NCBI GenBank assembly: GCA_963169915.1
Contig: CAUJEM010000125.1
Coordinates: 1 to 64,000, forward strand
Direction of reading: 5' to 3'
DNA: 64,000 bases
Source: Myxococcota bacterium
Lineage (GTDB): Bacteria; Myxococcota_A; Polyangia; Polyangiales; Polyangiaceae
Positions within the stretch are counted from its first letter, which is position 1, and the number at the start of each line of letters is the position of its first letter. The translations under genes and the position numbers were made by a program. Shown here one piece after another: positions 3,300 to 54,590 of this stretch. The notes beneath the pieces are model-generated. The model was not told the DNA's origin and ran no database searches. It worked only from the letters and a program-made list of their open reading frames with translations.

Positions 3300-4952
3300 C
3301 TAGGCTCGTACCACGCGCGGCGCGGCGGGAGAAACCACCGCCACGGCGCTCTTGCTCGGACTCGGCCCCTCCTCGGGGCTCGGGCAGTCCGCGCCCGGCG
3401 CCAGGCTCTTGACGCTCTCCACCGCCACGCCGGCCTGCGCCGCCGCGCGTCGCAGCAGCGCCCTCAAGGCCCCCTCGGAGGTGCCGCGGTGGTTGGTGAC
3501 CGCCAAGATCCGCCCCCCGGGGCGCGTCACCTGGAACGCGCTCTCGAGGAGCGCCGCGTAGTCCTTCGTGACGCTGAAGCTGCGCTGGCCGACGGTCGCG
3601 AAGCTGGGTGGATCGATCACCACGAGCCCCCAGCGCTCACCGCGGCGCGCGGCGCCACGGAGCCACTCCACCGCGTCCCTCCGCACGAAGCGGTGCCGCT
3701 GCTCATCGAGCGCGTTCGCTCGAAAGTTCTCACGCCCCCGCTCGAGCGCTCGCCCGGCAAGGTCCACGCTGGTCACCTCCGTGGCGCCTCCGAGCGCCGC
3801 CGCCACGCTGAACGAGCAGGTGTAAGAGAACAGGTTGAGCACCCGCTCGCCTCGAGCCCACTCACGCACCCTCGCGCGGTTGTCCCGCTGATCGACGAAC
3901 AGCCCGGTGGAGAGCCCGTCTCCCAGCGACACGAGCGCCCACTGCTCACCCTCGCGCACACGCAGCGGCTCCGGGGCTGGCGCTCCCACGAGCGGGGTGG
4001 GCGACGCCAGCTCACGCACCTCGAGCCGTCTCAGATCGGCTCGCGCGCGCTGCTTGAGATAGACGCCACGGGCGCCCAGCTCCACGAGGGCCTGCGCCAG
4101 CTCGGGAGCGCGAGCGGCGGCGTCGGGCGTCGACACGCAGAGCACCGCGAAGTCGCCATAGCGGTCGACCACCACGCCCGGCAGCCCATCGCCGAGCTCG
4201 TTGACCCAGCGGTGCGCGTCGCCCAGCCGCTCGAGCCCCCAGCGCCGCCAGAGCGCGACCTGGAGCGGCTGGGCGAGCTGCTCGGGGAGGCTGGGGGCGC
4301 GCCCCTCGAAGCACTCGCGCAGCGTCGCGGGCAACGGCGCCGTGAAGCGCTGGCCCTCGAGCGTCAGCGCTTCGGCATGCAGGCACAAGCGCCACCACGG
4401 CGCGCCGCCGTACAGGCGGTCTCCAGCGATGGGCGCACCCCGCGCGGCGAGCTGGACCCGGAGCTGGTGCGTGCGGCCCGTCTCTGGGAGCAGCTCGACG
4501 AGCGCGCGCCCGGCGTGGCGCGCCAGCACCCGGTACCTCGAGCGCGCCAGCAGCCCACCGCGCGGCACCACCCGAGTGACGCCACGCTCGTGCAGCAGGT
4601 GGTCTTCGAAGGCGCCCGCGGTGGGCAGCCCGGGATCGGTCACCACCGCGAGGTAGCGGCGCTCCGTGCGGTGCTGCTCGAACAGCGGCGCCAGGCGGCG
4701 CGCCACCGCTGGCGTCCGGCTCAGCGCCAACACCCCGCTCGTCGCCAGGTCGAGGCGCTGGTGCACCCCGAGATAGCTCGGCTGGCCCCGACGCTCGAGC
4801 CACCGCGCCACGCGACCCACCACGTCCGACACGTCGCCGTCTCGGCCGCCATGGACCGGCACGCCATGTGGTTTGTCCAGCACGAGCAGCGACGAGCTCT
4901 CGAAAAGCACGAGGCCCTCGAGCCAGTCGGTGAGACACGACTCGAAGGCCAC
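3300..4952 (-). CDS. Fusion of RluA-type pseudouridine synthase and RlmI-like SAM methyltransferase
   Basis: A 550-residue two-domain RNA modification protein. Residues about 12-215 are an RluA-family pseudouridine synthase: LDKPHGVPVH, catalytic Asp68 in HQRLDLATSG, RTHQLRVQ at 160-167 and LHAEALTL. Residues about 240-520 are a class I methyltransferase of the RlmI/RlmK type: NELGDGLPGVVVDRYGD, GLFVDQRDNRARVRE, SAM motif VLNLFSYTCSFSV, and DPPSF at 447-451. RlmI makes m5C1962 in 23S rRNA and normally has an N-terminal PUA domain; here a synthase domain takes that place. The GTG start has GGAGGA seven bases upstream. The gene sits between rplC and rlmE, so rRNA is the likely substrate for both activities; target sites are unknown. 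Confidence 0.85.
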   Translation of the reverse strand: MAFESCLTDWLEGLVLFESSSLLVLDKPHGVPVHGGRDGDVSDVVGRVARWLERRGQPSYLGVHQRLDLATSGVLALSRTPAVARRLAPLFEQHRTERRYLAVVTDPGLPTAGAFEDHLLHERGVTRVVPRGGLLARSRYRVLARHAGRALVELLPETGRTHQLRVQLAARGAPIAGDRLYGGAPWWRLCLHAEALTLEGQRFTAPLPATLRECFEGRAPSLPEQLAQPLQVALWRRWGLERLGDAHRWVNELGDGLPGVVVDRYGDFAVLCVSTPDAAARAPELAQALVELGARGVYLKQRARADLRRLEVRELASPTPLVGAPAPEPLRVREGEQWALVSLGDGLSTGLFVDQRDNRARVREWARGERVLNLFSYTCSFSVAAALGGATEVTSVDLAGRALERGRENFRANALDEQRHRFVRRDAVEWLRGAARRGERWGLVVIDPPSFATVGQRSFSVTKDYAALLESAFQVTRPGGRILAVTNHRGTSEGALRALLRRAAAQAGVAVESVKSLAPGADCPSPEEGPSPSKSAVAVVSPAAPRVVRA

Positions 4953-4990
4953 GGCGCTTCCTCCGACGGAGCTAGGCGCTCCCGCCGGTG

Positions 4991-5659
4991 CTACGGAGCC
5001 GCAGGCTTGCCACCACGGCGCTTGATGGCGCCGCGCACCTCGACCAGCGCGTCGCGCGGCCCCGGGATGCCGCCCCGGATGAGCAGCAGGCCCTCGTCCA
5101 CGAGCACCTTCATCAGTTGCTGGTTGAGGACGCTCACGGTGTGGTTGCCGTGCTGACCCGGCATCTTGGTGCCGAGCTTCACGCGGCCCGGCGTCATGTT
5201 GGTGCCGATGGACCCGCCGTGACGCTTGTACTCGTGCGCGCCGTGGCTGGAGACGGCACCGGCGAAGCCGTGACGGCGCATGACGCCGGTGAACCCGCGG
5301 CCCCGCGAGACGCCGCGGACGTCCACGATTTGACCCTCTTGGAACAGCTCGTCGAGCTTGAGCGTCTGGCCCACCTCGAACTTGGCGGCGTGCTCCGCGC
5401 TGCAGCGCAGCTCCCGCAGGTGCTGCTTCGGCGTCAGTCCGGCCTTCTTGAAGGCGCCGAGCTGCGGCTTCGAGGTGCGGCTCTCTTTCCGCTCCCCCAG
5501 GCCCAACACGAGCGCGTCGTAGCCGTCCTTGGCCTGCGTCCGCTTGCCCACCACCACGGGCTTGGCCTCCACGACGGTGCAGGGGACGACCGTGCCGTCG
5601 TCGATGAAGATCTGCGTCATGCCGAGCTTACGGCCGAAGATGCCGGGGTATTGATTCAT
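4991..5659 (-). CDS. rplC: 50S ribosomal protein L3
   Basis: A 222-residue L3. The N-terminus (PGIFGRKLGMTQIF) and the central block (DVRGVSRGRGFTGVMRRHGF, HGAHEYKRHGGSIG, PGRVKLGTKMPGQHG) are the diagnostic parts of bacterial L3, including the loop that reaches the peptidyl-transferase centre. The ATG is preceded by GAGGTGAGCC, a good ribosome site. L3 is normally the second gene of the S10 operon after rpsJ; here rpsJ, rplD and rplW are absent. Instead the gene heads an operon with two rRNA-modifying enzymes and faces rplS across about 200 bp. It may be the only, relocated copy or a second copy; the window cannot tell. Confidence 0.93.
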   Translation of the reverse strand: MNQYPGIFGRKLGMTQIFIDDGTVVPCTVVEAKPVVVGKRTQAKDGYDALVLGLGERKESRTSKPQLGAFKKAGLTPKQHLRELRCSAEHAAKFEVGQTLKLDELFQEGQIVDVRGVSRGRGFTGVMRRHGFAGAVSSHGAHEYKRHGGSIGTNMTPGRVKLGTKMPGQHGNHTVSVLNQQLMKVLVDEGLLLIRGGIPGPRDALVEVRGAIKRRGGKPAAP

Positions 5660-5865
5660 GGCTCACCTCGAGACCGGCGTCTTGGCGGGGCCCCGGACCA
5701 CCCGGAGACCCCCGACTCACCGGGGGCAGGCCCCGTACCGCCCGGAGCCCGGGGCGTCAAGCGACGGGCCCACGCCCGAGGCCGCTGCGGCGGGGCGGCT
5801 CCCCGTTGACGAGGCCGCCAAGGGGTGCTTGAGTGCGCGGCCCCAAGACCTTTGGAACGAAACCG

Positions 5866-6225
5866 ATGGCTGCCACGCTCTCCAAGATCGCACACCTCGA
5901 GACCCAAAACCTCCGGACGGATCTACCGGAGGTGCGCGTCGGCGACACCGTCGCCGTCCACTACAAGATCAAAGAGGGGGACAAGCTGCGCGTGCAGGTC
6001 TTCAAGGGGACCATCATCAAGCGCCACCGCGCGGGAGCTCGCTCCACCATCACGGTGCGCAAGACGAGCTTCAACGTCGGCGTGGAGCGTATTTTCATGA
6101 TCCACACGCCCCGGCTGGAGAAGCTGGAGCTGGTGTCGCGTGGCGTCGTGCGGCGGGCCCGGCTGTTTTACCTCCGTGGCCTCAAGGGCAAGGCCGCGCG
6201 CATCCAGGACGTCAAGGACCGCTGA
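5866..6225 (+). CDS. rplS: 50S ribosomal protein L19
   Basis: A 119-residue L19, a protein at the 30S-50S interface. The pattern is typical: [20 protein letters not shown], a KGTIIKRH strand, [15 protein letters not shown], and the C-terminal [19 protein letters not shown]. The ATG is chosen because family members start just before this point; an in-frame GTG at 5833 would add eleven residues not found in L19. In most bacteria rplS ends the rpsP-rimM-trmD operon, but none of those genes is next to it here. It is divergent from rplC, so the gap of about 200 bp between them should hold promoters for both ribosomal genes. Confidence 0.93.
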
Positions 6226-6509: not shown

Positions 6510-7397
6510 ATGGTCACCTGTCAGCGGTGTGGCGCCAACAATCAGCCGACCAACAAGTTTTGCCTGTCTTGCGGTAACGCCATCGCCGCTGCGCCGCCGC
6601 CTGGCCCCGCGCCGGGAGGCTGGGGCGTCCCGCCCGCACAGCCTGGCTGGGGCGGACCACCCGCGCAGCCGGGAGGCTGGGGAGCCCCTGGTCCAGAGGC
6701 TCCGCCGCAGCCCGGCTGGGGTGCGCCGCCGCCCGGCGCGCCTCCCGTGGCGCCGGCTGGTTGGGGCGCACCGCCTCCTGGGGCTCCTCCAGCGCAGCCC
6801 GGCGGCTGGGGCCCTCCGCCCGCACAGCCTGCGGGCTGGGGAGCACCGCCCCCAGGCGTGGGCGCGCCGCAGGCCCCCCTGCCTCAACCGCCGTATGGAG
6901 CCCCCGCGCCTGCCCCGGAGCCCTATCAGCGTGTCGGTGAGCCTGCGGTGGGGCTCAACCCCTACGGTGCCACCATGTCGCCGGACGCAGAGCAGCACGG
7001 CGCCCGGATGGCGGCGCAAGCCAACACCACCCCGGGCGGCGGGCTGGACGCCGACCACGTGCCCAGCGACGCCCCGCGGCTGCTCACGGGCTTCCTCGTC
7101 AGCTTCGACGACAACGAGCTGGGCGCCTTCTGGCCGCTCTATCAAGGGCAGGCCATCGTCGGTCGCAAGGACGCCGCGGACGGCCTAGACATCGAGATCG
7201 ACCACCCCACCACCTCGTCGCGCCACGCCGTCTTCTATGTGGGCGCCAAGCCTGGGCGCGTCATGGTGGAGGACACCGGCTCCACCAACGGCACCTTCCT
7301 CAACGACGAGAAGCTCCCGCCCGGCGCTCGCCGCGCGCTGCCCAACGGCGCCACGGTGCGCTTCGGTGGCTTCAACGTCACGCTCTACCTCATCTAA
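6510..7397 (+). CDS. Zinc-ribbon and FHA domain protein with Pro/Gly repeat linker
   Basis: A 295-residue cytoplasmic protein, first of the phospho-signalling cluster. The ATG follows GAGGAG by three bases. Residues 1-22 form a zinc ribbon with Cys4, Cys7, Cys18 and Cys21 (CQRCG, CLSCG). Residues about 25-150 are a flexible linker of repeated GWG/PPAQP units. Residues about 205-295 are an FHA domain: VGRKD, SSRHAVF and DTGSTNGTFLND supply the expected phosphothreonine-binding Gly-Arg, Ser-x-x-His and Ser-Thr-Asn-Gly residues. FHA domains bind phosphothreonine, so this is a likely reader of the kinase encoded about 7 kb downstream. The next gene starts 17 bp later on the same strand. Confidence 0.85.
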   Translation: MVTCQRCGANNQPTNKFCLSCGNAIAAAPPPGPAPGGWGVPPAQPGWGGPPAQPGGWGAPGPEAPPQPGWGAPPPGAPPVAPAGWGAPPPGAPPAQPGGWGPPPAQPAGWGAPPPGVGAPQAPLPQPPYGAPAPAPEPYQRVGEPAVGLNPYGATMSPDAEQHGARMAAQANTTPGGGLDADHVPSDAPRLLTGFLVSFDDNELGAFWPLYQGQAIVGRKDAADGLDIEIDHPTTSSRHAVFYVGAKPGRVMVEDTGSTNGTFLNDEKLPPGARRALPNGATVRFGGFNVTLYLI

Positions 7398-7414
7398 GGA
7401 GCCCGTCAGCTCGC

Positions 7415-9637
7415 ATGTCGTCTAGTGCCTCGCTCTTCGCCCGCTGCCGTCGCGCCGCCCTCGCGGCCGCGACGGCAGCCCTGGCCTTCGCTGCCCCTCG
7501 GGTGGCGTCCGCCGCGCCCGAAGCACGGATCATGCGGGTGGATCCGCGTGCCAGCCAGGAGGGGGGCGCCCCCATCCTCACTACGGTCATCTCCGTGGTG
7601 GAGAACAAGCGCCTCAGCGACGCCGTCGCGGACTGCGCGGCCCTCACGGGCAACGCACAGTTCGACTGCATGGCGCCTCGCCTGGAGGCCCCCAAGGCGC
7701 TCTACACGCCCTTCCCCTTCCCTGAGCAGAACGCCATCTTCACCGTGAAGATCGACGGCGCGGATCAGCCTGGGAAGTTCGTCAGCTCTACCAGCTGGGG
7801 GACGAGCCAAGCGCAAGCGGGCGTCGGGACGGCCTGGCTCATCATCATCGACGCCGACCGGAGGATCGGCGGCGGCTTCGAGGACGCCAAGCAGATCGCC
7901 GCGCGCTTCGTCTCGAGCATGGGCGCGAACGACATCGTCAACATCATGTTCATCAACGACCGCCAGGTCGTGAAGGACTCCAAGTGGCTCCCCGCGGCCG
8001 AGCGCGCCAAGGCCAGCAGCTTCATCACGTCCGTCCCGGACACCTACCCCAACTCCGGGCGCAACCGCTCGCTGCTCACCATCATCAAGAACGCCGCCAC
8101 GGACGGCTTCAAGTCCCTCGGCAACGTCAGTGAGCGCATCACGGTGCCACTGCACCAGGCCATGGTGGTGCTGTCCACGGGCTTCGGTGGGACGGACCCC
8201 TCCACCACCGGCCCGGGCGGCCTGCAGGTGGCGCAGTACATGACGGGCGGGCGCTTCCCGGAGGACAACACGGCGCTGCCGAAGGCGCCGGTGCCGGTGA
8301 TCAGCATCTACATCCCTGCCACCAGCACCTACGACGAGTTCCGGCAAAACTCCTTCGACTTCATGCAGAACCTCGCCAACCCCGAGATTGGCGGGTTCTT
8401 CACCATCGTCCGCGCCGGCGGCAGCGCGCGCGCGGCGGACATCGTCGGCTCCGTGCGCAAGCGCTTCGACAGCATGTACCTCGTGCGCTGGCGGGTCGCC
8501 TGCGTGGCGCCCAGCGTCACCCAGACCTTCGGGCTGGTCTTCAACAACGTGAAGCCCCCCATCACGGGAGACAACAGCTTCCGCGACGTGCCCGTGGGCA
8601 TCGACCCCAGCACCTGGCCCCTGGACGTCAACGTCACCTACACCGTGGACATGGCCAAGCGCTCCCCGGTCTACCCGGGCGGAAAGCTCAAGGTCTACGG
8701 GGACTTCTGCTGGGGCGGGGACAAGTCTCGCGCCGAGGTCTACTTCCTGCCCGCCGGCCAAGCGGCGCCCAAAGATCTCGGCGGGGCGGACCTCGAGAAG
8801 GCCAAGCGCCTGCAGCAGCAGCTCATCGCGCAAGGCATGAAGGGGGTCACCACGGACGCCAACCAGACCTCCGTGGAGTTCGAGGCGCCAGACAAAGAGA
8901 AGATCTTGCACGGCAGCGGGGAGTCCGCGGTGGTGCGGGTGGTGGTCTACGACAGCGGCGCGCGCCGCACGAGCGGCGTCACTGCCGACAGCATCCTCAC
9001 GCTCAAGGGCACCACGGCGCCGTTCCCCATCCTCTGGGTGCTCGGGGGGCTGTTTGGACTCACGGTGGTGACGCTGCTCGTCGTCGTCATCGTGCGCAGC
9101 GGGGGCAAGCGCCGTGGGGGGGGCGCGCCAGCCCCGGCGGTGATGCCCTACCCGCCCAGCCCCGCCTACCCTGGCCCCAGCTACGGCGCCCCGCCCGCAG
9201 CCCCCGCGGGCTACTCGCCGCTCGCCGCTGGAGGCTTCGCTCCCACGCCGGCGGCGCCGCCCGCCGCCGCGCCGCACTTCGGGCTCACGGGCGGCATGCC
9301 GCAGCATGCCGGCGCTCCGCCGCCCAACCCCTACGGCGCGGCCGCCTCCCGGGCGACGCTCGTGGGTAGCGCCGGGACTTACTCGGTCGTCCCTGGCGTC
9401 GAGCTCCGCGCGGGCCGTGACGGGGCTCAGTGTGGCATCCCGCTCGCTGAGCCGCGGGTGTCGGCGGTGCACGCCTCGCTCAAGCTGGAGAGCGGCACGC
9501 TCTACGTCCGCGACGAGAACAGCAACAACGGGACGCTGCTCAACGGGATGCGCCTCGACGCCGGCGCCTGGACGCCAGTACCGAACGGCTCGCTCTTGCG
9601 CTTCGGTCCGGTGGAGTTCAGCGTGCGGCTCGACTGA
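7415..9637 (+). CDS. Exported vWA-like protein with one membrane helix and cytoplasmic FHA domain
   Basis: A 740-residue protein. A signal peptide ends near RVASAAPE (about residue 34). Residues about 125-330 look like a von Willebrand A fold (WLIIIDADRR, FVSSMGANDIVNIMFIND, AMVVLSTGFGG), but the metal site is degenerate: DADRR replaces DxSxS. A second, beta-rich region carries a few cysteines. One transmembrane helix lies at about 536-560 (FPILWVLGGLFGLTVV), then a Pro/Ala/Tyr-rich linker, then a C-terminal FHA domain (LRAGRDG, VSAVHASL, NSNNGTLLNG). The sensor part is therefore outside and the phosphothreonine reader inside. AAGGAG lies 12 bases before the ATG. It sits between another FHA gene and the phosphatase, which suggests a transmembrane signalling role. 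Confidence 0.75.
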   Translation: MSSSASLFARCRRAALAAATAALAFAAPRVASAAPEARIMRVDPRASQEGGAPILTTVISVVENKRLSDAVADCAALTGNAQFDCMAPRLEAPKALYTPFPFPEQNAIFTVKIDGADQPGKFVSSTSWGTSQAQAGVGTAWLIIIDADRRIGGGFEDAKQIAARFVSSMGANDIVNIMFINDRQVVKDSKWLPAAERAKASSFITSVPDTYPNSGRNRSLLTIIKNAATDGFKSLGNVSERITVPLHQAMVVLSTGFGGTDPSTTGPGGLQVAQYMTGGRFPEDNTALPKAPVPVISIYIPATSTYDEFRQNSFDFMQNLANPEIGGFFTIVRAGGSARAADIVGSVRKRFDSMYLVRWRVACVAPSVTQTFGLVFNNVKPPITGDNSFRDVPVGIDPSTWPLDVNVTYTVDMAKRSPVYPGGKLKVYGDFCWGGDKSRAEVYFLPAGQAAPKDLGGADLEKAKRLQQQLIAQGMKGVTTDANQTSVEFEAPDKEKILHGSGESAVVRVVVYDSGARRTSGVTADSILTLKGTTAPFPILWVLGGLFGLTVVTLLVVVIVRSGGKRRGGGAPAPAVMPYPPSPAYPGPSYGAPPAAPAGYSPLAAGGFAPTPAAPPAAAPHFGLTGGMPQHAGAPPPNPYGAAASRATLVGSAGTYSVVPGVELRAGRDGAQCGIPLAEPRVSAVHASLKLESGTLYVRDENSNNGTLLNGMRLDAGAWTPVPNGSLLRFGPVEFSVRLD

Positions 9638-9649
9638 GCTGGGTCCCTC

Positions 9650-10774
9650 ATGAGCGAGCACGCCGTCCGAGGGGTGGTGTCGGACTGCGCCAGCGCGACC
9701 GATCCCGGGCTCGACCCCGCCAAGCAGATCAACGAAGACGCAGAGCTCGTCGTGGAGACGCCCCTCGGGCTCGCGCTCATCTTGTGTGATGGGATGGGCG
9801 GGCACGTCGGCGGACGTCAAGCCAGCACGCTGGCCGTCCGCATCATCGGCGACGCCCTCGGCGGCGCGGACGCCGCCGCCTCCCCGGAGCAGGTGCTCCG
9901 GGACGGCATCGTCACCGCGGGGCGCCGCGTCTACGAGCTCGGCGACAGCCCGGACATGCCGGCGCGCCCCGGCTCCACGGTGGTCGTCGGCGTGCTGCAC
10001 GAGCGCGGGCTCAGCGTGGCGCACGTCGGCGACTCCAGGCTCTACCTGCTCCGCGCCGGCCGGCTCTACCCGCTCACGCGCGATCACTCCCTCGTGCAGC
10101 AGCTGCTCGACAGCGGGCAGCTCACGCCCGAGCAGGCCAAGGAGCACCCGGACACGAACATCATCACGCGCGCGCTCGGCATGCAGCCCAGCGTGGAGGT
10201 GGAGGTCCGTGAGCAGCCGGTGCCGCTGGCCTTAGGGGACGTCGTGCTGCTCGCCAGCGACGGTCTCACGGATCTCCTGCGCGACGACGAGCTCGAGCAG
10301 GTGCTCGGCCTACACCTCGCCACCGGCCTCGAGGCCGCCGCGGCGGCGCTCATCCGCGTCGCCAACGCGCGCGGCGGACACGACAACATCACCGTCCAGC
10401 TCGCGCGGGTCCGTGAGCAGGGCACGGTCATGGAGGCCGCCGCGCCCGCGGCCAAGAGCCCCACCGCCCCCACGCTGGTCGACGGCCTCACGACGACGGC
10501 GCAAGGCGCGCCGCCCACGGTGGCGGACCTCTCCACCGCCGTGGCTCCGGACCCGCTGGAGCGGACCACACAGCCCGCGTTCTTGCCGGCCGGCTTCGGC
10601 GCGAGCGCACCGCGGCCGCCTGAGTGGCCCTCCCCGGAGCCGCCTCCTGGCCTCGTGCCCCCGCCGGGCCGTGCGCTGGTCTGGCTGCTGGCGCTCGCTG
10701 GTCTGCTCGTCGCGTGCCTGCTCGCGGCCGTGTTGGGCTGGTGGCTGTACCGGCTCAGCCATGGCTCGAGCTGA
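9650..10774 (+). CDS. PP2C-family Ser/Thr protein phosphatase, membrane anchored
   Basis: A 374-residue phosphatase. The metal-binding motifs of PP2C are all present: NEDAELV, LCDGMGGHVGG, VAHVGDSRLYLL, LASDGLTDLL and GGHDNITVQ. It dephosphorylates phospho-Ser or phospho-Thr using two metal ions. After the catalytic domain (about residues 5-265) comes a Pro/Ala/Thr-rich linker and one C-terminal transmembrane helix (ALVWLLALAGLLVACLLAAV), so the enzyme faces the cytoplasm from the inner membrane. It starts 12 bp after the upstream FHA gene and is followed after 48 bp by the FHA-ABC transporter. It is the obvious antagonist of the Ser/Thr kinase that closes the cluster. Confidence 0.92.
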   Translation: MSEHAVRGVVSDCASATDPGLDPAKQINEDAELVVETPLGLALILCDGMGGHVGGRQASTLAVRIIGDALGGADAAASPEQVLRDGIVTAGRRVYELGDSPDMPARPGSTVVVGVLHERGLSVAHVGDSRLYLLRAGRLYPLTRDHSLVQQLLDSGQLTPEQAKEHPDTNIITRALGMQPSVEVEVREQPVPLALGDVVLLASDGLTDLLRDDELEQVLGLHLATGLEAAAAALIRVANARGGHDNITVQLARVREQGTVMEAAAPAAKSPTAPTLVDGLTTTAQGAPPTVADLSTAVAPDPLERTTQPAFLPAGFGASAPRPPEWPSPEPPPGLVPPPGRALVWLLALAGLLVACLLAAVLGWWLYRLSHGSS

Positions 10775-10822
10775 GCGCGTGCGCCATTCCCAGAGCGGTG
10801 ACGCTCTGTTAGCTACAGCATC

Positions 10823-13768
10823 ATGATCCCCGGGTTCGGCAAGCAGAGCATCACCCTGGGCAGCGCGCCCACCTGTGACATCCGCCTCGGAGGCCCGGGC
10901 GTCGCCGCCGAGCACGCGCGCATCATCCATCAAGGCAACGGCAGCTTGCTGTTCCAAGACGGCGGGACGGGACAGACGCTCGCCAACGGACAGCCGATGG
11001 CGCCGGGCAGCGCGCTCCCCTTCGATTTCCGAACGCAATTCGTCGTCGGCCAGATGCCCGTGCCGGTGGACGCTCCAGCCATCGCGCTGATGTTGATGAG
11101 CGCCGGCGCAGCCCCGGTGGTACCTCAACAGCTCAGCGTCGGGCGAGATCCTGCCCGCGTGAACGTGGTCGTCCACCACCCCAGCGTGTCCGGCCACCAC
11201 CTCACGCTCCAGCTTGCGCCGCTCAGCGTCACGGACCAAGGCTCCAGCACCGGCACCTGGCTCGGGCAGCAGCAGCTCCCGGCGCTGCAGCCGGTGCCGG
11301 TCGATCCCGTCGCGACGCTGGCGGTCGGCCCGGTCCCGCTCCCGGTCACGCTGGCCATCCAGCTCGCGCAGGCGCTGTCCGGGGGACACGCGCCGGCGAG
11401 CCTGGGGGGCGCCGCCGCGGCCGCCGGTGCCAGCGGCGCCAGCGGGGCCAGCAAGCCTCGCCACAAGACCGTCATCGGCCAAGTGCAGCTCAGCGGCGGC
11501 GCGCTGGGCAAGACCATCGGGCGCACCGCCAGCAACGACATCGTCATCCAGCACCCTCAGGTCTCCAGCCGACACGCCGTGCTGCACCACCAAGGCGGGC
11601 AGCTCTTCCTCGAAGACAGCGGCAGCGCCAACGGCACCTACGTGCGAGGCCAGCGCATCCCGCCAGGCGCGAGGGTCCCCGTCGCCAACGGCGAGAAGGT
11701 CTTCATCGGCCCCATGCCCCTGCTCATCCAGGTGGAGGGCGCGGCGGTGGCCATGGTGGTGGAGGACTTCTCCGCGGACTGGGCGGGGCGTCCCCTCTAC
11801 GAGATCGAGGCGTGGGATCTGGTGGTCGAGGTCCCCGATCGCGACGACTCCAGCAAGATGAAGACCCTGCTGGAGCACGTCAGCTTCAAGGCGCTCCCGG
11901 GAGATCTCATCGCGCTCATGGGGCCGAGCGGCGCCGGCAAGACGACGCTGCTGCTCACGCTCAACGGCTACCTGCCCCCCACCGCCGGCCAGGTGCGCAT
12001 CAACGGGGAAGATCTCTACACCATCTACGACGCGCTGCGCGGCAGCATCGGCTACGTCCCGCAGGACGACATCGTCCACCCGGAGCTCACCGTGTACGAG
12101 GCCGTGCGCTACAGCGCCCGCTTCCGCCTCCCCCCGGACTACTCGGACGAAGAGATCGATCGGCGCGTGCAGACCACGCTGGCGCAGCTCGGGCTGGAGG
12201 CCGTGATGCACCTGCAGATCGGCAAGCCCGAGAAGAAGGTGCTCTCCGGCGGTCAGCGCAAGCGCGTCAACATCGCGATGGAGCTGGTCACCGATCCTGT
12301 GATCATGTTCCTGGACGAGCCGACCAGCGGGCTGGCCGCGGACGACACCAGCGCGCTCGTCTCGCTGCTGTCCGAGCTGGCGCGCAAGACGGGCAAGACC
12401 ATCATCTGCACCATCCACCAGCCGGCCAAGGACGAGTACGAGAAGTTCAACCTGGCGCTCATCCTGGGCGCCGGCGGTATCCCCATCTACTACGGCCCCA
12501 CGCGCGACGGCTACGGCTTCTTCGGCTCCTACCTCCCCAAGCTGGGGCGCCCGAACGACGTGGACAACCCGCGAGACATGTTCGACATGCTCAACCAGCG
12601 GGAGCGGCCGCTCTTCGACGCCCTCCGCGCGCAGAACCCCTACGCACAACGCTCGGAGGCGCGCCAGCTGGCGGCCCGAGAGTGGAACCGGGAGTTCTTC
12701 GAGCCCAGCAACCCCGTCTTCCAGCAGATGTACTCGGGCCGACGCGCGGTGGGCCAGGGCTCGCAGAGCGGCGGCGTCCCACGCGGGCGCGGCAAGACCT
12801 CCGGCCAATTCTGGCTGCTGCTCAGCCGCTACTTCCGCGTCAAGACGCGGGACGTCAGCGGGACGGTGATCATGCTGGCCCAGGCGCCCATCATCGGCGT
12901 GTTGCTCGCCTTCGTGTTCGGCGGACAGAAGAGCTCCATCCCGTACTGGTGCCTCGGCGCGCTCCAGGAGCTCGCCAGAAAGTCCGGCGGACTAGGCACG
13001 GGCTCCAACGAGCTGCTCTCGAGCATGACGCCGACCCAAGACAACTCCGCGGCGCTGTTCTTCCTGGTGGTCAGCGCGGTGTGGTTCGGCACCAGCAACG
13101 CCGCCCGTGAGATCGTCAGCGAGCGCGCCATCTACCTGCGCGAGCGCATGGTGAACCTTGGCCTCTTCAACTACGTGTTCAGCAAGTTCCTCTTGCTGTC
13201 GGTGTTCTGCGTCATCCAGTGCACCGTGCTGCTGGCGATCGTGTTCTTCGCGCTCGGCTTCAACGGCGGGCCCGAGGCCTTCGTCCTGGAGCTCGCGGTG
13301 CTCGTCGTCACCGCCATGAACTCCGTCGCCATGGGCCTGCTGCTCTCCACCTTGGTGGAGAGCAGCGAGGCGGCCATGGCGCTCACCCCCATCGCGCTCA
13401 TCCCCCAGGTGGTGCTCGGGGGCCTGATGGTGCCCATGACCACCAACCCCATGCTGGAGTGGTTCATGTACGTCATGCCCGCGCGCTGGGGCTTCCAAGG
13501 GGTCATCGCGCAGGAGCGCGCCGCCATCGTCAGCGACCCAGCGTGGGTGATGGATCTCAAGAAGCCCGACATGACCAGCGTCCCGGATTTCGTGACGGCC
13601 GGGAAGTTTCGCTGCGCGGAGGCGCAGATCGCCAGTAACGACATCGTGGGCGCGTGGGGCTTCGAGAGCCATGACCTCTACTGGCTGCCGCCCGCGGTCC
13701 TCGGCGGGCTCATGCTGGGGATGCTCCTCATCATCCTCATCATCCTCAAGCGCCGCGACCGCATCTGA
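10823..13768 (+). CDS. ABCG-type ABC transporter with three N-terminal FHA modules
   Basis: A 981-residue half-transporter. N-terminal modules: a weak FHA at about 1-75 (LGSAPTCDIRLGGPG, AEHARII), a second at about 92-165 (SVGRDPARVNVV, VSGHHLTL) and a clear third at about 215-310 (IGRTASNDIVI, VSSRHAVL, DSGSANGTYVRG). The nucleotide-binding domain (about 335-560) has Walker A GPSGAGKTTLL, signature LSGGQRKR and Walker B IMFLDEPTSGL, the ABCG style with the ATPase before the membrane domain. Residues about 680-980 hold an ABC2-type membrane domain with six or so helices. Rv1747 of M. tuberculosis has the same order with two FHA domains and is controlled by the kinase PknF. The substrate here is unknown; export of a lipid or cell-wall component is plausible. 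Confidence 0.9.
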   Translation: MIPGFGKQSITLGSAPTCDIRLGGPGVAAEHARIIHQGNGSLLFQDGGTGQTLANGQPMAPGSALPFDFRTQFVVGQMPVPVDAPAIALMLMSAGAAPVVPQQLSVGRDPARVNVVVHHPSVSGHHLTLQLAPLSVTDQGSSTGTWLGQQQLPALQPVPVDPVATLAVGPVPLPVTLAIQLAQALSGGHAPASLGGAAAAAGASGASGASKPRHKTVIGQVQLSGGALGKTIGRTASNDIVIQHPQVSSRHAVLHHQGGQLFLEDSGSANGTYVRGQRIPPGARVPVANGEKVFIGPMPLLIQVEGAAVAMVVEDFSADWAGRPLYEIEAWDLVVEVPDRDDSSKMKTLLEHVSFKALPGDLIALMGPSGAGKTTLLLTLNGYLPPTAGQVRINGEDLYTIYDALRGSIGYVPQDDIVHPELTVYEAVRYSARFRLPPDYSDEEIDRRVQTTLAQLGLEAVMHLQIGKPEKKVLSGGQRKRVNIAMELVTDPVIMFLDEPTSGLAADDTSALVSLLSELARKTGKTIICTIHQPAKDEYEKFNLALILGAGGIPIYYGPTRDGYGFFGSYLPKLGRPNDVDNPRDMFDMLNQRERPLFDALRAQNPYAQRSEARQLAAREWNREFFEPSNPVFQQMYSGRRAVGQGSQSGGVPRGRGKTSGQFWLLLSRYFRVKTRDVSGTVIMLAQAPIIGVLLAFVFGGQKSSIPYWCLGALQELARKSGGLGTGSNELLSSMTPTQDNSAALFFLVVSAVWFGTSNAAREIVSERAIYLRERMVNLGLFNYVFSKFLLLSVFCVIQCTVLLAIVFFALGFNGGPEAFVLELAVLVVTAMNSVAMGLLLSTLVESSEAAMALTPIALIPQVVLGGLMVPMTTNPMLEWFMYVMPARWGFQGVIAQERAAIVSDPAWVMDLKKPDMTSVPDFVTAGKFRCAEAQIASNDIVGAWGFESHDLYWLPPAVLGGLMLGMLLIILIILKRRDRI

Positions 13769-14009
13769 GCCGACCACCCAGGCGCCTGCGCAGGGGCGCA
13801 GAGTGGGCGCTCGCGGCGCGGCGTGCGGCTCTGCCGGCGTCGGCGCGCCGCATGGCGCGGGCGCGGCAGAAACACTCAGCAATTCATCGACATGGCCCGG
13901 CGGCGCGTCGCGCTGGGCTGGGACGCGGCGCGGCGCCCCCGGCGCTGCCGCCCGCGGGCGGGCTGCGCTGGGTGATCTCCCGCGCCGCAGCTCGTGTATC
14001 CTCTGGAGA

Positions 14010-15599
14010 GTGCCTCATGACACCTTCGGGATCGTCGGGACGACGCAAGCGGGGAGCTTCCTCGTGGAGGAGGCCGTCGCCGAGGGTGGCTTCGCGGTGG
14101 TGTACCGCGCGCTGCACACGGGGTTCCGCGCGCCCGTGGCGCTCAAGTGCCTGAAGATCCCGGAGGCCCTGGACCACGAGGCGCAGGCAGAATTTTTGGA
14201 TCGCTTTCGCGCGGAGGGAGAGCTTCTATTTCGACTGTCCACGCGGCTGCCCACGGTGGTGCGGCCGCTGCACTTCGGGACGCTCGAGCCGCACGCCCAG
14301 TTCGTCCCCTTCATCGCGCTGGAGTGGCTGGAGGGCGACAGCCTGGACGCCATCCTCCGCCAGCGGCTCGCCGACGGCCTGAAGCCCTTCTCGCTCAAGC
14401 GCGCGGTGCGGCTGCTGGAGCCCATCGCGCTCGCCCTGCGCGACGCTCACCATTTCCCCACCCCCGAGGGTGAGCACTCGATTTTGCACCGAGATCTCAA
14501 GCCGGAGAACGTGCTGCTCGCGAGCATCAACGGCGAGCTCGTCCCAAAGATCGTGGATTTTGGGATCGGCGCCGTCAAGAGCACGGCCTCGCAGGTCGTG
14601 GGGCGACGCTCGGCGGGCAACGCCGCGATGACCCCCTTCACGCCTGCCTACGGCGCACCAGAGCAGTGGCTCCCCAAGCGCTTTGGTCAGACCGGGACGT
14701 GGACGGACGTGTGGGGCTTGGCGCTCACGCTGGTGGAGATGGTGGTGGGGCGCCCGGTCATCGATGGAGACGCGGGCGCCATGATGGGGACGGTGATCGA
14801 CCCTACCCGACGCCCGACGCCGCGCGCAGAGGGCCTCGACACCACCGACGCCGTGGACGCCGTGTTCCAGCGGGCGCTCGCGGTGGACCCTCGGCAGCGC
14901 TACCAGGAGGTCGCGGTGTTCTTCACCGATCTCCAGCAGGCGCTCGGGCTGCCGACGGGTGAGCTCGGCGCCTTCCCGGAGGTCGTCCGAGCGCGGCCCG
15001 CGGTCGCGACCCCGGCGCTGGAGCCCGCCGAGCTCCCCGCCTCGTCCACGGCTCCGCCAAGGGCCGCCCGAGATGCCCTGGAGCTCGGGCCCAGCTCCAC
15101 GGTCACGCTGCAGAGCACCTCCACGACCCCCGGCGCGCTCTACGGCGGGGTGGTCCTCGACGACGACAGCGCCACGCTATCCATCGCGCTGGAGCCGAGC
15201 GGCGCGGCTCCAGCGCCGTCCTCGGCCGGCACGCCTCTCAGCAGCGCCAGGGGCGCCAGCGGCGGCCACCCTCGGCTCCCCCTCGCGTCGCCGCCCAGCC
15301 TACGTCCCGGCCACGCGCCCCGTGGTCCGTCGCCGGCCGCCACCTCCGCGCTCGTCTCGGCGCGGCGCGCGCCGTCATCGAGCGGGAGCACGGAGCGACT
15401 GCTCCGGGAGCGCTTCGGCCGCCCCTTGGCGCTCGTGGTCGTCGGCTCGCTGGTGGCGGCGGCGGACTTTCTCTGGACAGGCTCGCGCGGCAAGGTGCTC
15501 ATGCTCGGCCCGGTGCGCGTCTACTTCCTCGCCGCCCTGCTCGTCGTCGTGGGGATCGGGCTGGGGGCCTACCGCCTGCTCGCCGACGCGGACTCCTAG
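14010..15599 (+). CDS. Ser/Thr protein kinase with C-terminal membrane helices
   Basis: A 529-residue kinase, end of the FHA/PP2C/ABC cluster. The GTG start is tentative: GGAGA lies directly against it, but no better in-frame start precedes the domain. The catalytic core has a Gly-poor nucleotide loop (VAEGGFAVVYRA), Lys in VALKCL, HRDLKPEN near residue 160, DFG (IVDFGIG) near 185 and an APE-like GAPEQW. All catalytic residues are present. A Pro/Ser/Ala-rich linker leads to two closely spaced hydrophobic segments at about 470-527, so the kinase is on the inner membrane with its catalytic end in the cytoplasm. It is separated from the transporter gene by 241 bp and may have its own promoter. 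Probable substrates are the clustered FHA proteins and their partners. Confidence 0.85.
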   Translation: MPHDTFGIVGTTQAGSFLVEEAVAEGGFAVVYRALHTGFRAPVALKCLKIPEALDHEAQAEFLDRFRAEGELLFRLSTRLPTVVRPLHFGTLEPHAQFVPFIALEWLEGDSLDAILRQRLADGLKPFSLKRAVRLLEPIALALRDAHHFPTPEGEHSILHRDLKPENVLLASINGELVPKIVDFGIGAVKSTASQVVGRRSAGNAAMTPFTPAYGAPEQWLPKRFGQTGTWTDVWGLALTLVEMVVGRPVIDGDAGAMMGTVIDPTRRPTPRAEGLDTTDAVDAVFQRALAVDPRQRYQEVAVFFTDLQQALGLPTGELGAFPEVVRARPAVATPALEPAELPASSTAPPRAARDALELGPSSTVTLQSTSTTPGALYGGVVLDDDSATLSIALEPSGAAPAPSSAGTPLSSARGASGGHPRLPLASPPSLRPGHAPRGPSPAATSALVSARRAPSSSGSTERLLRERFGRPLALVVVGSLVAAADFLWTGSRGKVLMLGPVRVYFLAALLVVVGIGLGAYRLLADADS

Positions 15600-46166: not shown

Positions 46167-46781
46167 ATGGCAAAGTACTGCATTCGCTACGAGGATGTCG
46201 TGCATCTCCTGCGCCACCGCGAGACCCTGATCGGCCGCAGCTCGAGCTGCCCCATCTCGGTCAACCAGAGCAAGGTGTCGCGCGTCCACGCCATGCTGCG
46301 CCGCTCGTCGGAGGGGGTCGAGCTCGTCGACCTCGGCAGCATGAACGGCACGCTCGTCAACGGGCAGCGCCTGCGGCGGCCGCGCCTGCTCTCCGACGGC
46401 GACGTCCTCCGCGTCGGCGACCTGGATCTCCGCTTCTGCGTGGAGGCCGACGACCACTACGCCGAAGACACCACGGTGAGCAGCCTCGAGAGCCGTGCCC
46501 CCATCGAGCCCGGCCTCACCATGGACGCCGCGGAGATCCTCGTGGCCCAGGCCGAGCAAGACCCCACCAGCCTCTCGAGCGCCCGCGCTCTCCTCGATGG
46601 CCTGCTGTCCCGGCTCGAGCAATCGGCGAGCGGCCTGACCCCAGCTCAGCTCTCTCGCTTGCAGCAGCTCCTCCCCAGGGCGGTCGCGGATCTGAGCGCG
46701 GCGCCGGCGAGCGCCCAGCGAGAGCGGCTCCAGCGCCGCGCCGAGGCGCTCGCCGCGCGCCCCCCCACGGGCTTGGACTGA
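46167..46781 (+). CDS. FHA-domain protein
   Basis: A 204-residue cytoplasmic protein. The FHA domain fills residues about 8-95: TLIGRSSSCPISV, SRVHAMLRRSSEG, DLGSMNGTLVNGQRL and GDVLRVGDLDL give the phosphothreonine pocket. The C-terminal 100 residues are helical (GLTPAQLSRLQQLLPRAVADL). It lies nine bases before the CheA-like kinase gene, so it may bring a Thr-phosphorylated partner to that complex. Confidence 0.85.
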   Translation: MAKYCIRYEDVVHLLRHRETLIGRSSSCPISVNQSKVSRVHAMLRRSSEGVELVDLGSMNGTLVNGQRLRRPRLLSDGDVLRVGDLDLRFCVEADDHYAEDTTVSSLESRAPIEPGLTMDAAEILVAQAEQDPTSLSSARALLDGLLSRLEQSASGLTPAQLSRLQQLLPRAVADLSAAPASAQRERLQRRAEALAARPPTGLD

Positions 46782-52156: not shown

Positions 52157-53074
52157 TCAGCCCGAGACGCGGTTTCTGCCCGCTGCCTTCGACTGGTAGA
52201 GCCTTCTGTCGGCCTCTTCATAGAGCGCCTTCGGGTGCTCGTGAGCGGCCCACACGGCCAGCCCCAGGCTGAGCGTGACCGAGAGCTGGAGCTCCCCGAA
52301 ATGACACACCGTCTGCTCGACGCGCGCCCGCACGCGCTCCGCGAGCTCGCGCGCGGCCGCGGCAGGCCCCTCCATCAACAGGGCGAACTCCTCACCGCCC
52401 ACCCGCGCCAGCACGACCTGCTCGGGCAGCTCTAGGCGGACCGCCGCGACCACCTGCCGCAGCACGGCGTCGCCCGCTGGGTGCCCGTAGGTGTCATTCA
52501 CGCGCTTGAAGTGGTCCAGATCGAGCAAGACGAGCGCGACGCTCGCTGCTGGGGACGCTGGCGACTCCAGGCGCTGAGCGAGCAGCTCCTCGAAGCGCGC
52601 CTTGTTGTACGCGCCGGTGAGGCCGTCGTGATGGACGAGGCGCTGCACCTCCTCGTGGTACGCCGCCTCGACGTTCTGCCGGTACAAGTATTTGAGCAGA
52701 CACTTACCGATCCCGAGGCGATCTCCGTCCTTCAACAGCGCGCCGTCCCCCACGCGCTGCTCGTTGAGGAAGGTGCCGTTCGTCGAGCCCAGGTCCACCA
52801 GGTAGTGTCGCCCGTCGGTGCGCAGCTCCACGCGCGCGTGCTGCCGACTGACGGAGTCCGCGTTCAGCTGCAGCTGACACCCTGCACCACGCCCGAGCAA
52901 CACCGGCAGACTACCGACCACGGCACGCTGCCCCAGCTTGGCGCCCGCGATGACGATGAGCACCGCCTGGCCGCCGCTCGCCGTCCTCAACGAGAGCGGC
53001 GCCGGACCACAGACCGTCACCTCCACCGTGGAATCGAAGAGCTCCTTGGGCACGCTGACGTACAAGCCTAGCAC
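52157..53074 (-). CDS. FHA-GGDEF diguanylate cyclase-like protein
   Basis: A 305-residue cytoplasmic protein. The FHA domain (about 35-120) has LLGRGAGCQLQL, VSRQHARVEL and DLGSTNGTFLNEQRV. The GGDEF domain (about 145-305) has DGLTGAYNKARFEELL, LLDLDHFKRVNDTYGH and the active-site loop VGGEEF, a functional variant of GGDEF. No RxxD inhibitory site is seen five residues before it. It probably makes cyclic di-GMP when a Thr-phosphorylated partner binds the FHA domain. The start is uncertain; a GTG was chosen and another lies seven codons on. It converges with the lipoprotein gene to its left. Confidence 0.82.
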   Translation of the reverse strand: MLGLYVSVPKELFDSTVEVTVCGPAPLSLRTASGGQAVLIVIAGAKLGQRAVVGSLPVLLGRGAGCQLQLNADSVSRQHARVELRTDGRHYLVDLGSTNGTFLNEQRVGDGALLKDGDRLGIGKCLLKYLYRQNVEAAYHEEVQRLVHHDGLTGAYNKARFEELLAQRLESPASPAASVALVLLDLDHFKRVNDTYGHPAGDAVLRQVVAAVRLELPEQVVLARVGGEEFALLMEGPAAAARELAERVRARVEQTVCHFGELQLSVTLSLGLAVWAAHEHPKALYEEADRRLYQSKAAGRNRVSG

Positions 53075-53177
53075 AAGCCGCAGAGCCGCAGAGCCGCGCC
53101 CGCGGAGGGCGAGGCCAGCGCTCGCGCGGCGGCCCGGGAGCTGCCCCCCTACGCCCCGCAGCCCTCGCCCCCCAGGA

Positions 53178-54590
53178 TCAGCCGTCGTAGTAGAGCTGGT
53201 ATTCCATGGGGAGCGGGTACTTCCGCACCTCCGCGAGATCTCGCTCGCGCTTGAGCTCCACCCAGGTGTCGATGACGTCTCTCGTGAAGACATCACCCTG
53301 GAGGAGGTAGTCGTGGTCCTCCTCGAGCCCTAGCAGGGCCTCCTCCAGAGACAGCGGCATCCGTCGGACGTCCTTCAGCTCCTCGGGGGACAAGCTGTAG
53401 ATGTCCTTGTCCAGAGGATCCCCCGGGTCGATCTTGTTCTGGATGCCGTCGAGCCCCGCCATCATCATTGCGGAGAAGGCCAGGTAGGGGTTGCACATCG
53501 GATCGGGGAACCGCACCTCGATGCGCTTGGCCTTCGGTGAGGTGCTGTAGGTGGCGATGCGCAGCGCCGCCGAGCGATTGCGGCTCGAGTACGCCAGGTT
53601 GATGGGGGCCTCGTACCCTGGGACCAAGCGGCGGTAGCTGTTGGTGGTGGGGTTGGTGAACGCCGCTAGGCTCTTGGCGTGCTTGAGGATGCCGCCGATG
53701 GACCAGAGCGCCAGCTCGCTCAAGCCAGCGTAGTTCTCGCCCGCGAACAGCGGCTTGCCGCCCGCCCAGAGCGACTGGTGACAGTGCATCCCGCTGCCGT
53801 TGTCCCCGTACAGGGGCTTGGGCATGAAGGTGGCCGTCTTGCCGTGCTGCTTGGCGACGTTCTTGACGATGTACTTGAACCACAGCAGCTTGTCCGCGCA
53901 GGGCAAGAGCTTGTCGTAGCGGAAATCGATCTCGTTCTGGCCGGCCGTAGCGACCTCGTGGTGGCTGACCTCCACGTGCAACCCGCACTGCTGCATCACC
54001 TTCACCATGTCCGCCCGCAGATCGACCATGGAGTCGACGGGGGACACGGGGAAGTAGCCCTGCTTGAGCCCGATCTTGTAGCCCAGGTTCGGTCCCTCGT
54101 CCTTGCCGGTGTTCCAGGCAGCCTCCGAAGAGTCGACCGACCAGGAGCAGCCCCGCGTGCTCAGCTCGTACCGCACGTCGTCGAAGACGAAGAACTCCGC
54201 CTCGGGGCCGAAGAAGCAGGTGTCCGCGATGCCCGTGGTCTGCAGGTAGGCCTGGGCCTTCTTGGCGATGTAGCGGGCGTCACGGGAGTAGCTCTGGCGC
54301 GTGAGCGTGTCCTGGACGTTGCAGATGAGCGACAAGGTAGGGTGCTTCATGAAAGGATCCATCAGCGCGCTGGACGGATCCGGGATGAGCAACATGTCGC
54401 TGGCGTTGATCGGCTGGAACCCCCGGATGGACGAGCCGTCGAAGCCGAAGCCCTCCTCGAAGGAGTCCTCCTCGAGCTGCCAGATGGGGACGCTGGTGTG
54501 CTGCCACTGTCCCAGCAGATCCACGAACTTCAGATCCACCATGAAGGTGTCGTGCTTCTTCGCGAACTCCAATACTTCTCTCGGTGTCAT
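53178..54590 (-). CDS. glnA: Glutamine synthetase, type I
   Basis: A 470-residue GSI making glutamine from glutamate, ammonia and ATP. The ATG at 54590 has GGAGGAG six bases upstream. Signatures: [23 protein letters not shown], the metal site [37 protein letters not shown], and [17 protein letters not shown]. The adenylylation Tyr is conserved in [11 protein letters not shown], so activity is probably controlled by covalent adenylylation (GlnE), sensed through PII. The glnB gene lies 110 bp upstream on the same strand, forming the usual nitrogen pair. Confidence 0.96.

Follow-up and report, generated by a model that had tools for sequence, protein, structure and literature searches.

A conserved PP2C-FHA-ABCG gene unit of Polyangiaceae as a candidate phosphothreonine-assembled exporter module

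Can a short run of genes for phosphothreonine readers, a phosphatase, an ABCG pump and a kinase amount to a self-contained exporter controlled by phosphorylation? The question is raised by a locus of a soil-type myxobacterium of the Polyangiaceae, within the 64,000-nucleotide stretch of DNA analyzed here (the window). The original prediction described five same-strand genes with their domains, and Pfam matches in all five, here called A to E, bear this description out. The genes, with the ribosomal protein gene that precedes them, are as follows.

5833–6225, + strand: rplS, ribosomal protein L19 (TIGR01024 match), directly upstream of the module
6510–7397, + strand: gene A, N-terminal zinc ribbon, Pro/Gly-rich linker and C-terminal FHA domain (Pfam)
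7415–9637, + strand: gene B, signal peptide, extracytoplasmic ectodomain of predicted vWA fold, one transmembrane helix (TM), cytoplasmic Pro-rich linker and FHA domain
9650–10774, + strand: gene C, PP2C Ser/Thr phosphatase (PF00481) with a C-terminal membrane anchor (TM residues 343–361)
10823–13768, + strand: gene D, FHA1-FHA2-linker-FHA3-ABCG half-transporter (three FHA stretches, ABC_tran and ABC2_membrane in Pfam)
14010–15599, + strand: gene E, Ser/Thr kinase (Pkinase in Pfam; HRDLKPEN, DFG) with two C-terminal TM helices

Domain and synteny analysis delimits a conserved unit of four genes, A-B-C-D, which we think probably constitutes a phosphothreonine-assembled, PP2C-erased module around an ABCG exporter, with transport switched by phosphorylation. 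The predicted tight spacing of 12–48 bp applies to these four genes, with gaps of 17 bp (A-B), 12 bp (B-C) and 48 bp (C-D), but not to the kinase. The open reading frame of E opens at 13671, inside D; the credible start, however, is the GTG at 14010, which follows the ribosome-binding sequence TCTGGAGA, and the D-E gap is thus 241 bp, which is not operon-tight. No sigma-70-type promoter or terminator between the genes scored above shuffled sequences, a test made uninformative by the GC-rich genome. An L19-like gene, judged from sequence, also lies upstream in seven other loci (L031, L032, L033, L039, L042, L051 and L053); we regard rplS as a positional marker and do not think that it has a role in the mechanism.

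The unit is conserved across the family. Orthologues of D, called like the others by tblastn/HMM in genomes many of which are drafts, are full length, share 59–76% identity and occur in nearly all genera of Polyangiaceae. Among the 21 D loci whose upstream sequence reaches 6.5 kb or more, A is found upstream in 17, B in 19 and C in 18, and the exact A-B-C-D order is kept in 14, an association above chance across genera. B and D are near-universal in the family; G013, of a genus (g13) with small or reduced genomes, has no strong match to either. The B ectodomain is single-copy, present in almost every Polyangiaceae genome and in another family of the order (f8); elsewhere in the 241 sampled genomes of the class, just weak vWA-level matches were found. 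In three relatives (L038, L039 and L040) C is not beside D. In the same-genus genome G001, oxidoreductase-like ORFs are inserted between C and D (L035, 5412–8689). Co-organization of kinases and phosphatases has been reported to be very rare in myxobacteria (PMC2887360); despite this, they keep a syntenic unit of phosphatase, FHA proteins and exporter.

Conserved gene order was the touchstone that the original prediction set for itself; the first four genes bear it out, but the kinase does not. According to that prediction, the system may be self-contained with its own kinase, and E would then be the cognate kinase for D and its partners in a five-gene system. E is indeed intact, membrane-anchored, on the same strand and the next gene; adjoining kinases are usual in other phyla; and other, non-orthologous kinases lie near D in two relatives, directly after D in G026 and twice between C and D in G011. 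In addition to the 241-bp gap, however, no E orthologue adjoins D in any Polyangiaceae relative checked, the same genus included, and E stands beside D in the window's genome only. Relatives of E with 48–62% identity sit at unlinked loci in the four relatives searched, mostly without FHA or ABCG neighbors (one has a PP2C nearby). Furthermore, the window's 4.2-Mb genome holds about 60 kinases, which makes a chance neighbor plausible. E as a conserved member was therefore rejected, its membership in the module is uncertain, and we consider the five-gene reading unlikely. The lack of a kinase within the conserved Polyangiaceae unit counts against the exporter-module reading that we prefer as well. 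The kinase PpkA of the type VI secretion system (T6SS) has a periplasmic domain; unlike it, E has by hydropathy no ectodomain and a TM hairpin near its C-terminus.

The protein around which the unit is built, D, can be divided into the following parts.

10826–11071, + strand: FHA1, degenerate (alignment of orthologues)
11108–11350, + strand: FHA2 (alignment of orthologues)
11468–11470, + strand: codon of Thr216 (alignment, model)
11486–11731, + strand: FHA3, canonical and most conserved (alignment of orthologues)
11870–12328, + strand: nucleotide-binding domain, NBD (Pfam, alignment)
12806–13510, + strand: ABC2_membrane domain (Pfam)

The predicted triple FHA is present as three FHA stretches, but in nearly all orthologues FHA1 has lost the Arg and the Ser that bind phosphothreonine: the Arg is replaced by Ser in 30 of 35 and the Ser by Ala in 26 of 35, while a conserved motif of its own is kept, and its role is probably structural. 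FHA2, by comparison, retains both residues in 34 of 35 (R108, S123 and H126 in D), and in FHA3 the residues G233, R234, S248, H251 and N270 are invariant in 35 orthologues; most invariant residues of the N-terminal region fall in this domain. Thus, judged by these residues, phosphothreonine binding looks feasible for FHA2 and FHA3 only. The ATPase motifs (Walker A, LSGGQ, DEPTSG and H-loop) are invariant in 29 orthologues.

Thr216 is invariant in all 35 orthologues, within the motif KHxTV[IL]G directly after a hypervariable Pro/Ala linker. The model (mean pLDDT 88.7) has Thr216 within the opening strand of FHA3, and its invariance may thus be structural; for this reason we do not accept it as a proven phosphosite, and regard it as either a candidate site of phosphorylation or a part of the structure of that strand. 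A phospho-motif shared by B and D, KxT[VL][IV]G, was likewise considered and rejected: its Thr varies in B, and distant FHA-ABCG proteins do not have the motif.

What is known of bacterial FHA-ABC exporters comes mainly from Rv1747, a single mycobacterial protein with an unsettled substrate and set of partners. In M. tuberculosis, the kinase PknF, encoded in the operon of Rv1747, phosphorylates it at specific threonines (PMC3908365), and threonines of its linker and partners are regulatory sites (PMC3908365, PMC5549992). D resembles it in having FHA domains N-terminal to an ABCG-type half-transporter and, in the window though not in relatives, a kinase gene alongside. Unlike Rv1747, D has three FHA modules, the first degenerate, and its conserved partners are the genes for the PP2C, the vWA-TM-FHA and the zinc ribbon-FHA proteins rather than a kinase. 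The sequence match between the Rv1747 FHA and FHA3 of D is weak (6ccd/6cah, E about 5e-5). D has the FHA-NBD-ABC2 order, the intact ATPase motifs and at least one intact FHA domain that define the Rv1747 type of FHA-ABCG protein; since no adjoining kinase is conserved, we file it as an FHA-ABCG exporter and not as a PknF-Rv1747-type operon. Most likely, the module is related in kind to Rv1747-PknF. By its kinship with ABCG transporters, the substrate of D may be a lipid or glycolipid, or a hydrophobic metabolite.

The partners carry further FHA domains, which together with the other parts of B are located as follows.

7155–7367, + strand: FHA domain of A (PF00498, 1.3e-14)
7802–8479, + strand: vWA-fold part of B, residues 130–355, with degenerate MIDAS (VIA-align of the model)
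9038–9094, + strand: transmembrane helix of B, residues 542–560 (hydropathy)
9407–9607, + strand: FHA domain of B, canonical GR/S/H/NNGT (Pfam, alignment)

B had been predicted to be an exported FHA protein. The hydropathy-based topology contradicts this: a signal peptide, an ectodomain of about 500 residues and a single TM precede the C-terminal FHA, which must hence be cytoplasmic. The vWA-like part fared better. Pfam gives no match to it in the window's protein, but VWA_2 is matched in 4 of 20 orthologues. Since none of the solved structures matches the ectodomain by sequence, a fold comparison was used. The AlphaFold (AF2) model of the ectodomain (mean pLDDT 83.6) aligns with the vWA domain of the calcium channel alpha2/delta subunit with a VIA-align Z of 18.4 (model residues 61–323, most rows 98–323); the comparison with alpha2/delta, integrin I and other vWA domains gives Z of about 18 over 170–195 residues. 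On the strength of this model, residues 130–355 of the ectodomain are assigned the vWA fold. Its MIDAS motif (DxSxS) is degenerate, with D146 invariant and S148 and S150 variable; an intact motif is common in vWA domains but not obligatory. Outside-to-inside signaling through B is possible.

In A, the zinc ribbon gives a Zn_Ribbon_1 match just below the Pfam cut-off, and the FHA domain carries the signature LxGFLVSF, which zinc ribbon-FHA proteins of other phyla share as LxG[FW]LVS[FY]. In C, the PP2C motifs DGMGGH and GD are present, and a match to NF033484 (Stp1-like) lies below the cut-off. Two known systems combine similar partners. The first is ArnA-ArnB of Sulfolobus, a zinc finger-FHA protein and a vWA protein that interact in a phosphorylation-dependent manner (PMC6509490); the pairing of A with B is alike, and a Foldseek comparison with the B ectodomain has the ArnAB structure 8s05 among its top matches. 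Unlike our module, however, ArnA and ArnB control archaellum expression and involve no transporter, whereas B is exported, spans the membrane and has an FHA of its own. The second is the gene sets described with GAP1-N2 GTPase systems, in which a kinase, often fused to a zinc ribbon or TM, is linked to a PP2C and a vWA protein (PMC7159879). These differ in belonging to GTPase-centered conflict systems and, in the description consulted, have no FHA-ABCG transporter.

FHA-ABCG genes were found in many phyla, and their neighborhoods differ from those of plain ABCG genes. In a pattern-limited sample of the best 80 loci, 26 of 42 FHA-ABCG genes have a kinase or PP2C gene no more than 5 kb away, as against 2 of 22 ABCG genes without FHA (Fisher p 5e-5, ignoring phylogeny). 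Seven Bacteroidota loci (L090, L094, L097, L099, L207, L208 and L216) hold, in this order and thus with A-B-C arranged as in the window, genes for a zinc ribbon-FHA protein, an ectodomain-TM-FHA protein, a PP2C and a kinase, with an FHA2-ABCG gene further on; a Holophagales genome has vWA-FHA, DZR-FHA, PP2C, kinases and FHA-ABCG together, supported by Pfam; and in the BMS3Abin03 genome zinc ribbon-FHA, PP2C, FHA-ABCG and kinase genes are clustered. In two Bacteroidota with small genomes (G256 and G260), all matches listed for the A profile, five in each, are on the cluster contig, mostly through the FHA. Profiles of B from Polyangiaceae and from Bacteroidota or Holophagales share only weak, co-linear vWA similarity (hhalign probability 7%), and we therefore do not treat the B proteins of different phyla as one-to-one orthologues.

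These clusters with adjoining kinases strengthen the predicted idea of a phosphorylation-run FHA-ABCG exporter with a vWA-FHA membrane partner, though not the part in which the system is self-contained with its own kinase. As comparable gene sets, usually accompanied by kinases, are present in Bacteroidota and Acidobacteriota too, we probably see a widespread, unstudied envelope exporter controlled by phosphorylation. More tentatively, and with slightly less than even confidence, we suggest one dedicated envelope export machine that is shared by several phyla and put together by way of phosphothreonine marks, composed of an FHA-ABCG pump, a zinc ribbon-FHA adaptor, a vWA- or metalloprotease-TM-FHA protein, a PP2C and a local kinase; in Polyangiaceae it would be a core system.

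How might the module work? The steps that we infer start from the parts, their topology by hydropathy, the catalytic and FHA motifs, which are intact, the conserved gene order and the recurrence across phyla. A kinase (E here or one of the about 60 others; the adjoining one in other phyla) would phosphorylate linker threonines of D, of its partners or of both. The FHAs of D (mainly FHA3, also FHA2), of B and of the cytosolic zinc-ribbon protein A would then bind these phosphothreonines. A complex would thereby form at the membrane, and within it B would couple its extracytoplasmic vWA domain to the pump. Finally, the membrane-anchored PP2C would strip the phosphates, the complex would come apart and transport would thereby be switched. 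As precedents we take Rv1747-PknF for the pump, the T6SS pathway for the logic and ArnA-ArnB for the pair of zinc finger-FHA and vWA proteins. With the conserved set naming a reader, an eraser, an ectodomain partner and a pump, in free-living bacteria (Sorangium/Polyangium and Bacteroidota), Ser/Thr control of an exporter becomes directly testable.

The same parts could instead serve as a scaffold, the FHAs recruiting the pump, the vWA protein and their partners to one envelope site, with phosphorylation controlling assembly or clustering and not the transport cycle. Five FHA domains over three proteins, with long disordered linkers, would suit this, as would the recurrence of TM proteins that pair an ectodomain with a cytoplasmic FHA, be it vWA (L085, L090, L212), M48 (L094, L097, L207) or M4 peptidase (L095). 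What a scaffold leaves unexplained is why FHA domains are fused specifically to an ABCG pump in many phyla; nor is it truly exclusive of gating. We give it the same low standing as the cognate-kinase reading.

Somewhat less probable again is that A-B-C forms a general phospho-reader/eraser module of which D is merely a frequent neighbor. In three Bacteroidota loci (L212, L213 and L214), the stretch examined holds A-B-C but no FHA-ABCG gene, and the trio may thus have other targets; in L047 D has no A, B or C alongside. However, D itself bears FHA domains, and the linkage of FHA-ABCG with A-B-C recurs in Myxococcota, Bacteroidota and Acidobacteriota.

That the module is the threonine-phosphorylation branch (TagQRST-PpkA-Fha1-PppA) of a T6SS, which has similar parts in a kinase, a PP2C, an FHA reader and the ABC transporter-like TagTS (PMC10482370), is very improbable, and was rejected for the window's genome: no TssC/VipB (PF05943) match was found there (G000, assembly 90.7% complete), in the same-genus G001 or in several other module-bearing genomes, no T6SS gene was seen beside D, and, unlike in the T6SS pathway, the FHAs are fused to the pump, an ABCG exporter, and the kinase gene is not conserved.

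No description of the gene set behind the exporter module that we favor was found in the full-text literature searched, the coverage of which leaves out most subscription papers.

Several minor observations were made along the way. In three of the Bacteroidota loci, a gene for an FHA-TM-Peptidase_M48 protein lies between the kinase and the pump (L094, 8664–9884; L097, 7737–9017; L207, 10170–11570). In Alteromonas sp. 1_MG-2023 (L095, 5501–9821), the FHA-ABCG gene has among its neighbors one for an M4 metallopeptidase-TM-FHA protein and one for a PP2C whose tail is a thermolysin propeptide (FTP), the enzyme and the propeptide thus being carried on separate phospho-signaling proteins. In the window, two more FHA-matching ORFs lie outside the module (46167–46781, + strand; 52157–53296, − strand). 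Finally, at 3300–5659 (− strand), a gene for ribosomal protein L3 stands apart from an S10-type operon; the gene next to it reads as a pseudouridine synthase-methyltransferase fusion, and the pairing recurs in relatives.
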